A DNA stretch of 64,000 bases from Chryseobacterium wanjuense (lineage in GTDB: Bacteria > Bacteroidota > Bacteroidia > Flavobacteriales > Weeksellaceae). Below the pieces are notes generated by a model. That model saw only the letters and a program-made list of their open reading frames with translations. It was not told the DNA's origin and did not search any database. Location of the stretch: assembly GCF_900111495.1 (NCBI RefSeq), contig NZ_FOIU01000001.1:806001-870000 (forward strand), written 5' to 3'. Position numbers and translations under genes: made by a program. Below are positions 6,149 through 27,928 of the stretch, in pieces (the stretch's first letter is position 1; each line of letters starts with the position of its first letter).

Positions 6149-7198
6149 ATGAAAACATCAGATTTTAATTTTGATCTTCCTGCAGAACTATTAGCAGAAC
6201 ACCCATCAGAGCACAGAGACGAAGCGAGATTAATGGTTTTGGACAGAAAAACTCAGACCATTGAGCACAAATTGTTCAAAGATGTGGTAGATTATTTCAG
6301 TGAGGAAGATTTATTTATCTTTAATAATACTAAAGTTTTCCCTGCACGTCTTTATGGAAATAAGGAAAAAACAGGTGCTAAAATCGAAGTATTCCTTTTA
6401 AGAGAGCTTGATAAGGAAACACGTGTGTGGGATGTATTGGTAGATCCTGCAAGAAAAATCAGAATCGGTAACAAACTTTTCTTTACAGAAGATGAATCTT
6501 TGGTAGCTGAAGTTATCGACAATACAACTTCCAGAGGAAGAACATTGAGATTTTTATTCGACGGTTCTTACGAAGAATTCAGAGCCAAATTAAAAGAATT
6601 AGGAGAAACTCCACTTCCAAAATACATCAAAAGAGCTGTTGAACCTGAAGATGCTGAAAGATATCAGACTATTTATGCAAAAATAGAAGGGGCGGTTGCT
6701 GCACCTACTGCTGGTCTTCACTTCTCTAAACATTTGATGAAGAGATTGGAAATCAAAGGAATTAATTTTGCAGAAATTACACTTCACGTTGGTTTAGGAA
6801 CATTCAACCCAATCGAAGTTGAAGATCTTTCTAAACATAAAATGGAGTCGGAAGAAGTGTTTATTGATGAAAGAAATGCTGAAATCATCAACAAAGCCGT
6901 AGACGGAAACAGAAGAGTTTGCGCAGTAGGAACTACAACAATGAGAGCTTTGGAAACTTCGGTTTCTTCAAACAAAAAAATCTCTGCATTCCACGGCTGG
7001 ACAAACAAATTCATCTATCCGCCTCACGATTTCGGAGTAGCAAACTCAATGATCACAAACTTCCACACGCCAAAATCTACATTAATCATGATGATTGCAG
7101 CGTTTGCCGGAAGAGATTTCATCATGCACGCATACGAAGAAGCTGTAAAAGAGAAATACAAATTCTACTCGTACGGTGATGCAATGTTAATTTTATAA
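6149..7198 (+). CDS. queA: S-adenosylmethionine:tRNA ribosyltransferase-isomerase
   Basis: 349 residues, full length for QueA. It starts with the family's [19 protein letters not shown], and carries [20 protein letters not shown] and TLHVGLGTF, all QueA hallmarks. The enzyme moves the ribose part of SAM onto 7-aminomethyl-7-deazaguanine in tRNA anticodons and makes epoxyqueuosine, the next-to-last step of queuosine synthesis, in the cytoplasm. It has its own strong promoter. Downstream lies another RNA-modification gene, rlmN, but a mobile-looking four-helix-bundle cassette sits between them. The start ATG at 6149 agrees with the family N-terminus. Confidence 0.97.
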
Positions 7199-7210
7199 TA
7201 AAAAAGTAAA

Positions 7211-7644
7211 AAGAGCCAAGTTAAAAGTAAAAAGGTAAGTTAGAGGTATAAAGTAGAGGTCGATGAGACAGAATGATTTACTTACAAGGACTTTTGCATT
7301 TGGGGTTAATTGTCTTAAGTTTTTAAGAACGCTTCCAAACGATCCTGAAAGTAAATTAATAAGATTTCAACTTGGAAAATCTGCTACTTCAATAGGTGCT
7401 AATTATGAAGAATCGCAGGCTGGATCTTCTAAAGCAGATTTTAAAAATAAAGTGAAAATTGCTTTAAGGGAAGCCCGGGAAAGTAATTTTTGGCTTCGGG
7501 TTTTAGAAAAACTAGACGGCTATAATTCAGAAGAATTTAAAAACTTATTGAATGAAAGTGCAGAACTGAAAAATATTCTGGCTGCAATAGTTAATAATAC
7601 CAAACTTTAAAAACTTTTTAATTTTTACTTTTAACTTGGCTCTT
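7211..7644. mobile_element. Four-helix-bundle (IVP-like) cassette bounded by a perfect 23-bp inverted repeat
   Basis: Bases 7211-7233 and 7622-7644 are exact reverse complements over 23 bases (core AGCCAAGTTAAAAGTAAAAA). They enclose only the four-helix-bundle gene 7263-7610, begin 12 bases after the queA stop and end 7 bases before the rlmN ATG. Genes of this family are known as open frames in the intervening sequences of bacterial 23S rRNA genes, also bounded by complementary ends. The boundaries make the gene look like a compact inserted unit. No transposase and no clear target-site duplication are seen; movement is inference. Confidence 0.65.
7263..7610 (+). CDS. Four-helix-bundle protein (TIGR02436 / S23 / IVP family)
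   Basis: 115 residues with the family core SIGANYEESQAGSSKADF...KIALREARESNFWLRVLEKLD. The fold is a bundle of four helices that forms a pentamer in known relatives (23S rRNA intervening-sequence proteins, and Avd of diversity-generating retroelements). No reverse transcriptase, variable repeat or rRNA is nearby, so it is neither a DGR accessory gene nor an rRNA insertion. The protein is basic enough to bind nucleic acid. The gene sits alone inside the 23-bp inverted repeat described separately. The ATG at 7263 matches the usual N-terminus and length (about 115-120). Function is unknown; family assignment is secure. Confidence 0.88.
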   Translation: MRQNDLLTRTFAFGVNCLKFLRTLPNDPESKLIRFQLGKSATSIGANYEESQAGSSKADFKNKVKIALREARESNFWLRVLEKLDGYNSEEFKNLLNESAELKNILAAIVNNTKL

Positions 7645-7651
7645 AAATAAT

Positions 7652-8686
7652 ATGAAAGATATCAGAACTTTATCACTAGACCAGCTCAAAGAATACTTTA
7701 TGTCTTTGGGAGAGAAGCCGTTTCGTGCGAAACAGGTGTATGACTGGTTGTGGAGTAAGAATCTCCATTCGATTGATGAAATGACGAATCTTTCGAAAAC
7801 TCTTCGCGAAAGAATTGCGGAAGAATATACCATCAATCCCGTTTCTGTGGATCAGCTTCAAAGAAGTACGGACGGCACCATCAAAAACGGAGTGAAGCTT
7901 CACGACGGCCTTATGGTGGAATCTGTATTAATTCCTACAGAAACAAGAACTACAGCATGTGTTTCTTCACAGGTCGGATGTTCATTGAACTGCGAATTCT
8001 GCGCCACAGCGAGACTGAAAAGAATGAGAAATCTTGAAGTTGCTGAAATCGTGGATCAGGTTGCTTTAATCGACAGCCAGAGTAAAATGTACTTCGACAG
8101 ACCGCTTTCCAATATCGTTTTTATGGGAATGGGAGAGCCGATGATGAATTACAAAAATGTGGTGGAAGCGATCAGAAAAATCACCCAGCCGGAAGGTTTG
8201 GGAATGTCTCCGAGAAGAATTACCGTTTCTACTTCCGGAATTCCAAAAATGATCAAAATGTTGGCAGATGAGGATTTGAGGGTGAAATTGGCATTATCAC
8301 TTCACTCGGCAATTGAATCTAAACGCAACGAGATCATGCCTTTCTCCGATAAGTTTCCTTTAACGGAGATCATGGAAGCGCTTCAATATTGGTACAAAAA
8401 GACAGGCTCTGTTGTTACTTTTGAATATTGTGTCTGGAAGGATATTAATGATAAAGATGAAGACATAAAAGCCTTGATTAAATATTGCAAGCAGATTCCT
8501 TCTAAAGTTAATTTAATTCAGTATAATCCGATCGGTGACGGAAAATATGACCAGTGCAACAAACAGGCGGAAGAAAACTATATCCGTCAGCTTGAAAATG
8601 CCGGAATCGTTTGCGTCGTAAGAAAAAGCCGTGGTGGAGATATCGATGCAGCTTGCGGTCAGCTGGCTAATAAAGCTTCGGATTAA
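7652..8686 (+). CDS. rlmN: Dual-specificity 23S rRNA / tRNA adenine-C2 methyltransferase
   Basis: 344 residues, radical-SAM enzyme. CSLNCEFC (C110, C114, C117) binds the 4Fe-4S cluster, and AACGQLA near the end holds C335, matching the second methyl-transfer cysteine of RlmN. It methylates A2503 of 23S rRNA and A37 of some tRNAs at C2. VFMGMGEPMMNYKNV is the SAM-binding GGE-type motif. The start ATG at 7652 lies only 7 bases after the inverted repeat of the four-helix cassette, so the cassette end forms the leader or promoter region of this gene. The antibiotic-resistance relative Cfr has a different sequence context; nothing here suggests Cfr. Confidence 0.96.
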   Translation: MKDIRTLSLDQLKEYFMSLGEKPFRAKQVYDWLWSKNLHSIDEMTNLSKTLRERIAEEYTINPVSVDQLQRSTDGTIKNGVKLHDGLMVESVLIPTETRTTACVSSQVGCSLNCEFCATARLKRMRNLEVAEIVDQVALIDSQSKMYFDRPLSNIVFMGMGEPMMNYKNVVEAIRKITQPEGLGMSPRRITVSTSGIPKMIKMLADEDLRVKLALSLHSAIESKRNEIMPFSDKFPLTEIMEALQYWYKKTGSVVTFEYCVWKDINDKDEDIKALIKYCKQIPSKVNLIQYNPIGDGKYDQCNKQAEENYIRQLENAGIVCVVRKSRGGDIDAACGQLANKASD

Positions 8687-17728: not shown

Positions 17729-17832
17729 AATTGTTAATGGTGAATTTGCTTTGCTGTCAATTTGATTTTTACAACTTTTCTGAATTGACAATTAACTATT
17801 CACTGGCGAAGTAAAATTCACTATTGACAATT
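17729..17832. repeat. Palindromic spacer element with 19-bp arms
   Basis: 17729-17747 and 17814-17832 are reverse complements with two mismatches (AATTGTNAATNGTGAATTT). Internal pieces of the same sequence (TTGACAATTAACTATTCAC, 17784-17802) are present. It has no open frame. It looks like a small palindromic repeat of the REP/MITE type. With the two hairpins that follow it fills the gap 17724-18026. Confidence 0.55.
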
Positions 17833-19342: not shown

Positions 19343-19452
19343 TTCCCGCTTTCCGCACTCGCTATTTTTAGCTTTTCGGTTGGGGCAAGCCTTTGGCTTG
19401 CCCCAACCGAAAAGCTAAAAATGAGCTCAAACAAATGCTCCAATCGGGGCTA
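19343..19452. repeat. Intergenic repeat with a perfect 28-bp stem
   Basis: 19364-19391 and 19395-19422 are exact reverse complements over 28 bases with a TTT loop (apex GGGGCAAGCC-TTT-GGCTTGCCCC). It is flanked by TTCCCGCTTTCCGCACTCGC on the left and CTCCAATCGGGGCTAGGG on the right, flanks that I recall from other Chryseobacterium spacers. No gene is involved. This and AT-rich sequence are all that I see in 19230-19733. Confidence 0.7.
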
Positions 19453-26980: not shown

Positions 26981-27034
26981 TCTCAACGTAAAAGAAACAA
27001 ACAACTTGCAACCATCAACCACCAACTAGAAAAA

Positions 27035-27928
27035 ATGAAAATAATCATCGCCGCCGGAACAGGATTTCTGGGAAAAAACCTGGAAAAATATTTTACAGAA
27101 AAAGGAAATGAGGTTTATATTTTAACCAGAAGTCCAAAACGAAATAATGAAATGTATTGGAATGCGAAAACATTAGGAGAATGGAAAAACATCCTTGAAA
27201 ATGCAGATATTTTAATTAATCTTGCAGGAAAATCTGTTGACTGCAGGTACACAGAGAAAAATAAAAAGGAAATTTATTCCTCAAGAATCGACAGTACAAA
27301 AGTGCTTCAACAGGCTATTGATGACTGCAGGAATAAACCTAAAGTTTGGTTAAATGCAAGTTCCGCAACGATTTATGTGCATTCCGAAACACAATTAAAT
27401 ACAGAAGAAAACGGAATTATCGGAGACGATTTTTCAATGAATATTTGTAAAAGTTGGGAAAAAGAATTTTTTAAAGCAAAAACTGAAAATCTGCGAAAAG
27501 TAGCTTTACGAACTTCTATTGTTTTAGGTAATAACGGAGGCGCTTTTCCAAAATTAAAAATGATCACAAAATTCGGATTGGGAGGAAAGCAAGGACGCGG
27601 AAATCAGAATGTAAGCTGGATTCATATCGATGATTTTTGTAAAGCGATTCAATTTATTATTGATCATGAAAATATTTCAGGAAAAATCAATATTACGGCA
27701 CCGAATCCTTTATCCAACAAAGAATTTATGATGAAATTAAGGAAAGAAATGAAAGCTCAATTTGGGTTGAATGCCCCCGTTTGGCAGTTGGAAATCGCAT
27801 CAATTTTTTTAAAAACCGAAACCGAATTATTACTAAAAAGCAGAAATGTTTATCCTGATAAATTAATGAAAAGTGGTTTTGAATTTTCTTATCTGGAAAT
27901 AGATTCTGCATTTAAAAATTTAATTTAA
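27035..27928 (+). CDS. TIGR01777 family NAD(P)-dependent epimerase-like protein
   Basis: 297 residues, extended short-chain dehydrogenase fold. The nucleotide-binding loop is AAGTGFLGKNL (residues 6-16), close to the usual GGTGFIG. Then follow NLAGKSVDCRYTEKNKKEIY and SRIDSTKVL, the family's own signature, and NASSATIY. The C-terminal 50 residues (APVWQLEIASIFLKTETELL) are the DUF1731 tail. Relatives include E. coli YfcH; no reaction is proven. It probably belongs to the regulated membrane/lipid run, although 138 bases with a repeat lie before it. Confidence 0.85.
   Translation: MKIIIAAGTGFLGKNLEKYFTEKGNEVYILTRSPKRNNEMYWNAKTLGEWKNILENADILINLAGKSVDCRYTEKNKKEIYSSRIDSTKVLQQAIDDCRNKPKVWLNASSATIYVHSETQLNTEENGIIGDDFSMNICKSWEKEFFKAKTENLRKVALRTSIVLGNNGGAFPKLKMITKFGLGGKQGRGNQNVSWIHIDDFCKAIQFIIDHENISGKINITAPNPLSNKEFMMKLRKEMKAQFGLNAPVWQLEIASIFLKTETELLLKSRNVYPDKLMKSGFEFSYLEIDSAFKNLI

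Follow-up and report, generated by a model that had tools for sequence, protein, structure and literature searches.

An S23/IVP gene between complementary arms of seven-nucleotide repeats: a candidate minimal selfish unit outside rRNA

The stretch of DNA analyzed here, called the window, comprises 64,000 nucleotides (positions 806001–870000 of contig C1) of the 4.67-Mb genome of Chryseobacterium wanjuense. Between queA and rlmN, it contains one short open reading frame (ORF) enclosed by two arms (Table 1). The product of this ORF belongs to the TIGR02436/PF05635 S23-IVP family, with scores of 79.5 bits against TIGR02436 (cut-off 24) and 64.1 bits against PF05635 (cut-off 33.8). The arms are 23 nt each, 100% complementary, and 388 nt apart. 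The whole unit, in which the S23/IVP gene is the single gene, is approximately 430 nt long. A preliminary description had reported perfect 23-bp inverted repeats around one TIGR02436-type gene at this place, and the coordinates bear this out. The unit begins 12 bases past the end of queA and stops 7 bases short of rlmN, the last base of queA being 7198 and the first of rlmN 7652. The inverted-repeat score of the 90-nt flanks was 23 for the window element. A score of at least 12 was reached by only 9 of 336 ordinary ORFs of the same genome (maximum, 24), and for this reason a chance origin of the inverted repeat is discounted. The preliminary description had also placed the unit outside rRNA and without a reverse transcriptase. 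Both points hold: the unit lies between queA and rlmN, an Rfam scan of the window gave no match, hence neither an rRNA gene nor a group I intron is there, and a PF00078 search of the genome found no reverse transcriptase, which led us to reject retro-mobility in this genome. The control for this search gave matches in 3 of 14 genomes. The solved structure nearest to the window protein is 2rld, one entry with five chains, and 2gsc, another structure of the family, is also a five-chain entry.

Table 1. Features of the unit and its surroundings (positions within the window, except for the first row)
Feature	Position	Strand	Remarks
Window	C1:806001-870000		4.67-Mb genome
queA	6149..7198	+	Upstream neighbor, codirectional with the S23/IVP gene
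5′ heptamer arm array	7199..7242	+	Perfect arm 7211-7233 (AAGAGCCAAGTTAAAAGTAAAAA); lag-7 stretch flagged at 7192-7242
S23/IVP four-helix-bundle gene	7263..7610	+	115 aa; PF05635 and TIGR02436 above cut-off
3′ heptamer arm array	7611..7651	+	Perfect arm 7622-7644 (TTTTTACTTTTAACTTGGCTCTT); lag-7 stretch flagged at 7595-7658
rlmN	7652..8686	+	Downstream neighbor, codirectional with the S23/IVP gene

The stem arms of the unit are built of 7-nt repeats, a feature that the preliminary description had missed. The 5′ arm reads AAGTAAA AAGAGCC AAGTTAA AAGTAAA AAGG..., a degenerate 7-nt repeat, and the direct repeat AAAAGTAAAAAG occurs at 7202 and 7223, at an offset of 21 nt, or three times seven. Five further genes of the family (L005, L006, L007, L008, and L010) are present in the same genome. 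Their flanks are also arm-like, with different cores, which read by eye as AGTTATG, AGGCTNN, ATAGAYA, GGTTGNT, and CGGGATT. The complementarity of the arms is clear in L005, L006, and L007 and weak in L008 and L010.

Within the genus, 77 IVP ORFs from 75 of the 76 loci examined were analyzed with 90-nt flanks, and the best lag among 4–13 was taken for each flank. Lag 7 was the peak in 68 of 77 upstream and 54 of 77 downstream flanks (9 and 23 flanks, respectively, lacked it), with echoes at 14 and 21, these elements not being independent, as they share junctions (22 of 77 precede groEL). In control stretches 410–500 nt away, lag 7 was best in 7 of 76 and 7 of 75. The arms also match each other within elements, with a median complementarity score of 12 for own pairs and 8 for swapped pairs. 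Among the units that precede groEL, the IVP identity is as low as 44.9% (L005 against L152); L005 itself (C1:43350-43670) lies between groES and groEL, with the genes assigned by eye.

The same layout is found far beyond the genus. In a phylum-wide sample of 118 genomes, TIGR02436 was found in 88, and in the phylum sample of 31 ORFs from 30 loci, lag 7 reached z values of 6.1 and 7.6 and was best in 13 of the upstream and 14 of the downstream flanks. In named genomes, 585 loci were confirmed by a scan, and the best 80 of these were used, the fetched matches being the best-scoring among those listed. According to the record titles, 44 of the 80 loci belong to Bacteroidota and 36 to others, with L255 (Ignavibacteriales) placed among the latter, which include Geobacter, Planctomycetes, Clostridia, Patescibacteria, Treponema, and Acidobacteria. 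For these best 80 of 585 loci, lag 7 was best in 25 of 36 non-Bacteroidota flanks on each side (11 of 36 on each side did not show it) and in 27 of 46 Bacteroidota flanks on each side; in far stretches of the whole set, it was best in 2 of 79 and 6 of 76. Lag 7 was best on both sides in 50 of 77 genus IVP genes and 41 of 81 in the named-genome set, and in only 5 of 336 ordinary ORFs. One deltaproteobacterial unit (L281) has long exact arms, with 31 of 31 positions complementary. An rRNA location of the distant units was rejected for the 20 of the 36 non-Bacteroidota loci (from the best 80 of 585) that were scanned with Rfam, as none gave a match. The central finding is one arm–gene–arm layout in which the heptamers differ between elements; it marks the gene family and not only this locus. 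A single-locus hairpin was rejected because the arms recur around the S23/IVP gene family, and the finding of this layout around the same genes in bacteria only remotely related suggests that a minimal selfish unit is widespread.

Heptamer arrays are not confined to the flanks of S23 genes. A strict lag-7 scan of the window gave nothing, and a strict hairpin scan gave five hairpins, as did the reversed control. A looser scan of 464 kb of the genome found 18 lag-7 regions and 12 lag-14 regions, with 1–8 at the other lags from 4 to 13. Arrays without an S23 gene are common and scattered over this sample. In the window, further heptamer-like stretches without an S23 gene lie at 26983-27041 and 17729-17832. 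Two hairpins lacking period 7, at 530-626 (38-nt arms) and 19364-19422 (28-nt arms), are perhaps terminators. Elsewhere in the genome, L201:6674-6751 is a tandem array of CCCTAAA, which is the plant telomere heptamer. Arrays of the AAATTTTAGATTTTAG heptamer stand directly 5′ of apparent rplP and rpoC genes (assigned by eye) in many genomes of the genus (L331–L337, L340, L341, L343, L346, and others; L357 and L359).

The orientation of the units is strongly biased. When both neighbors were callable and codirectional, the IVP gene shared their direction in 129 cases and opposed it in 6. These are totals of three sets, in which the genus elements are not independent because of shared junctions; in the named-genome set alone, the counts were 55 and 4. 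In the 5′ arm, G is frequent (.325) and C scarce (.082), as counted over 44 arm pairs of the named-genome set that score at least 14. Together, the strand bias and this composition suggest that the units play a part as RNA, or at a minimum that transcription of the host exerts selection on them. For the RNA of 7199-7660, the predicted fold, in which the whole unit is closed by its arms, has −112.2 kcal/mol (z −4.49). Folding by the ends, as envisaged in the preliminary description, is thus a prediction and is in keeping with the strand bias. Strong covariation in the arms was looked for and not found. Two-sided changes occur at three pairs in the window spacer type and four in type A, and in the window type, 458 of 464 cells are paired, against a shuffled maximum of 98.3%, which is weak, on the side of pairing.

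The queA–rlmN junction was followed through the relatives. Of 98 genus genomes, 97 yielded rlmN, and the spacer was read in 90 (G001, G011, G056, G057, G067, G090, and G094 were left out). Its length ranges from 68 to 476 nt. The spacers fall into the window type (33), types A (31), D (7), E (7), B (6), and C (5), and one singleton. A gene is detectable in 27 of the 33 window-type spacers, several of these genes being truncated, and 63 of the 90 spacers have no detectable gene. The IVP profile misses some window-type genes: L047 gave no score, yet this same junction, also recorded as L085, has a tblastn match. The spacers of the other types are short, gene-free, and heptameric. An inverted repeat above all of 30 shuffles was present in 74 of 90 spacers, namely in 32 of 33 of the window type, 7 of 7 of D, 7 of 7 of E, 5 of 6 of B, 21 of 31 of A, 1 of 5 of C, and the singleton. 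The preliminary description had proposed a comparison of relatives for empty sites. Gene-free spacers do exist, but none of the 90 junctions is bare, as 58 of the 59 spacers shorter than 130 nt have a lag-7 peak. Under a lenient control, the gene-free types A–E resemble the arms of gene-bearing elements elsewhere, type A with a likeness of 29 against a shuffled maximum of 12.5 and type C, the weakest, with 15.5 against 12.0.

The spacer type changes approximately 38 times on the queA tree (mean 47.0 and minimum 40 in 200 shuffles), and genome pairs with a queA divergence of only 2.8–3.7% differ in type. For exchange of junction alleles by long homologous recombination, the comparison speaks neither for nor against, since same-type pairs are only slightly closer beside the junction: in the queA divergence bin of.10–.15, the first 90 nt of rlmN diverge by.134 in same-type and.147 in different-type pairs. 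The gene-bearing allele at queA–rlmN is junction-bound and alternates with gene-free heptameric spacers. At E ≤ 1e-25, window-type genes were found in 4 of 196 genomes of the order, all four belonging to this genus. In all 12 loci checked, from 11 genomes of which 7 are outside the 90, rlmN lies directly 3′ of the window-type gene. The window copy is regarded as an allele bound to one junction because the copies in other genomes also precede rlmN.

The end motif was also searched elsewhere, as the preliminary description had suggested. With one mismatch allowed, it was present in 94 of 173 genus genomes, and the reversed control was present in 41 (hand count). Among 30 loci fetched for the motif, the profile detected the gene in 9 and overlooked it in at least one other (L047). 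The 17 gene-less loci inspected were mixed: besides heptamer arrays, there were isolated stretches resembling an arm and a few matches that were coding or due to chance. The picture of a fixed gene, carried by all relatives at this place and with ends occurring nowhere else, is not what was found. The idea of a minimal mobile unit is supported for the family, in which one unit occurs at two junctions and inserts are found in methyltransferase genes; for the window copy, which showed no movement and was met only before rlmN, mobility is no more than a possibility.

The two-junction case concerns a unit of the same genome with AGTTATA arms (L006/L362), located between an aminotransferase gene and kdsB. 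In another species (G028), its counterpart (L194/L361) flanks this aminotransferase gene on the opposite side, one gene upstream. The IVPs are 88.8% identical, the alignment spans both arms, and the kdsB junction of G028 keeps an apparent leftover right arm. These sequences fit duplication with loss just as well as a jump. An IVP was found by profile in 3 of 30 kdsB loci. Conversely, one site can hold dissimilar units: the junction between a thiolase and an acyl-CoA dehydrogenase gene carries two unlike types of IVP whose arms also differ, L007 and L167 on the one hand and L339, L344, and L347 on the other. Within the first type, the IVPs of L007 and L167 share 54.8% identity. The data do not support strict joint inheritance of arm and gene. 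Of all 3554 cross-junction pairs, 25 have similar 5′ arms; for the 125 pairs whose IVPs reach at least 60% identity, the number is 7. Arm and gene are only loosely linked, because 118 of the 125 pairs have no similar 5′ arms and the 7 come from three pairings.

Some units are located inside genes. Four units of the phylum set are intragenic, three in PF01555 DNA methylases (L226, L246, and L228) and one in a restriction-modification-like gene matching MmeI_Mtase and N6_Mtase (L245). The host frame stays open across the IVP gene in all four; in the other 187 IVP ORFs, every alternative frame is closed. This overprinting was read on DNA in four loci only, the three methyltransferase genes and the restriction-modification-like gene. 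Among the 120 listed homologues of the L226 host protein, 112 have 139–166 aa at the insertion point and 8 have a linker of 6–24 aa, a ratio that leans towards the insert because the L226 query itself held it. By eye, the insert of L226-type host proteins starts and ends with apparent translated heptamer arms. In the host frame of L245, residues 981–1085 form a DUF559 domain (PF04480, 125.4 bits) after a repeated PSPTGRGAGGEG peptide; this stretch is perhaps another in-frame mobile gene.

Several explanations can be considered. The heptamer spacers might be independent intercistronic elements, such as terminators, mRNA stabilizers, or protein-binding sites, with an origin and turnover of their own, on which S23 genes land as passengers, like homing genes in introns. 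The 63 gene-less spacers among 90 at queA–rlmN, the S23-less arrays scattered over the sampled 464 kb, and the loose link between arm and IVP identity (7 of 125) all agree with this, as do the Nostoc trnL P6b stems, which switch between two 7-nt motifs with no protein named in the passages on them (PMC4476775). Nevertheless, one unit occurs with both of its arms at two junctions (L006 and L194), lag-7 flanks on both sides are rare for ordinary genes (5 of 336), and the association of heptamers with S23 holds in other phyla, so that independent spacers are a somewhat unlikely account, although one to be taken seriously.

A fixed local gene, whose local hairpin ends or shields the queA transcript, would explain why the search at E ≤ 1e-25 found window-type genes in 4 of 196 genomes of the order, none outside the genus, and why every copy checked stands before rlmN; with a detectable gene in just 27 of 90 relatives at this junction, 38 changes of spacer type on the queA tree, and a family-wide arm pattern, it is very unlikely. 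The terminal inverted repeats, the small size, and the gene-free relatives recall a MITE-like passenger whose ends a classical transposase would recognize and mobilize in trans. The arm sequence varies between elements even in one genome, unlike transposase ends, and this is the least likely of the explanations weighed. In our view, the window unit is probably a copy of a widespread minimal selfish unit, an IVS-like hairpin outside rRNA.

Such a selfish unit would consist of a 7-nt-repeat arm, an S23/IVP gene, and a complementary 7-nt-repeat arm, that is, the layout of the rRNA IVS transferred outside rRNA. In the operon RNA, the arms would pair into a long stem with the gene shut in the loop, and the host transcript would tolerate the unit because of this enclosure, possibly through cutting by RNase III, by analogy with rRNA. 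More speculatively, an S23 pentamer might engage the heptamer arms, perhaps with one heptamer per subunit; five heptamers make 35 nt, close to the observed arm lengths. The net charge of the window protein is only +4, which counts against an arm-binding model. The protein might also help the unit to be copied or kept via host repair or recombination, which are invoked because the unit encodes no known mobility enzyme. Decay of the gene could leave the arms behind, and the 6 of 33 window-type spacers without a detectable gene are possible relics.

S23 proteins have been described as having no known function (PMC4990558), and 7-nt repeats have been reported in bacteria with no agreed cause (PMC4679880, PMC4476775). 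A Xanthomonas protein of the S23 family is reported to be a homopentamer (PMC4990558). Taken singly, the protein, the rRNA IVS, and hairpins of 7-nt repeats are already known; what is new is the joint unit of an S23/IVP gene and a 7-nt-repeat hairpin outside rRNA, and no paper linking the two was among the top matches in the open-access literature. It is possible, and we propose it tentatively, that S23/IVP proteins are maintenance or copying factors of bacteria-wide transposase-less elements, that inverted 7-nt-repeat arms, and no fixed end sequence, define the class, that the pentamer reads the heptamer rhythm, and that rRNA IVSs, the Nostoc stems, and many unexplained heptamer repeats are members or relics. 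Joining S23 and heptamers offers a testable binding partner for the protein and a candidate protein for the repeats. It further provides a model for selfish units of gene size that have neither recombinase nor reverse transcriptase, and the methyltransferase hosts supply an example in which one gene is overprinted on the frame of another.

The unit can be compared with several known systems. Rickettsia palindromic elements are palindromic inserts that are tolerated in frame inside protein genes. To our knowledge, they carry no gene, and in this they differ from the intragenic S23 insert, which holds a gene in another frame. PF05635 has been reported to resemble Avd of diversity-generating retroelements in PMC10053308, the only paper among the top open-access matches in which that accession appeared; unlike such a retroelement, the genome studied here yielded no PF00078 reverse transcriptase. 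The heptanucleotide elements of Geobacter metallireducens, some of which are inside genes and some drawn as paired strands (PMC2700814), and the TAACTGA repeats (PMC4679880) are multi-copy intergenic 7-nt repeats like the arms of the window unit. Unlike here, both were interpreted as regulator sites, and the term “S23” does not occur in the main text of either paper, nor “four helix” in that of PMC4679880. In the P6b region of the Nostoc tRNA-Leu intron, stems of 7-nt repeats also switch type at one site, where unrelated motif classes repeatedly replace each other (PMC4476775). Two motif classes are described there, and six plus a singleton are found at queA–rlmN. P6b lies inside a group I intron, unlike the window unit, and the passages on it in PMC4476775 mention no S23 gene. 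The closest likeness in plan is to the 23S rRNA IVS, which is known to be excised by RNase III (PMC4990558). The Coxiella IVS with an S23 ORF is 428 nt long (PMC4990558), nearly equal in size to the window unit, the protein family is the same by name, and in both, the ORF lies within a stem of complementary ends. The window unit differs in its place between protein genes, outside rRNA, and its arms are 7-nt repeats, a period that was read in the non-rRNA units only.
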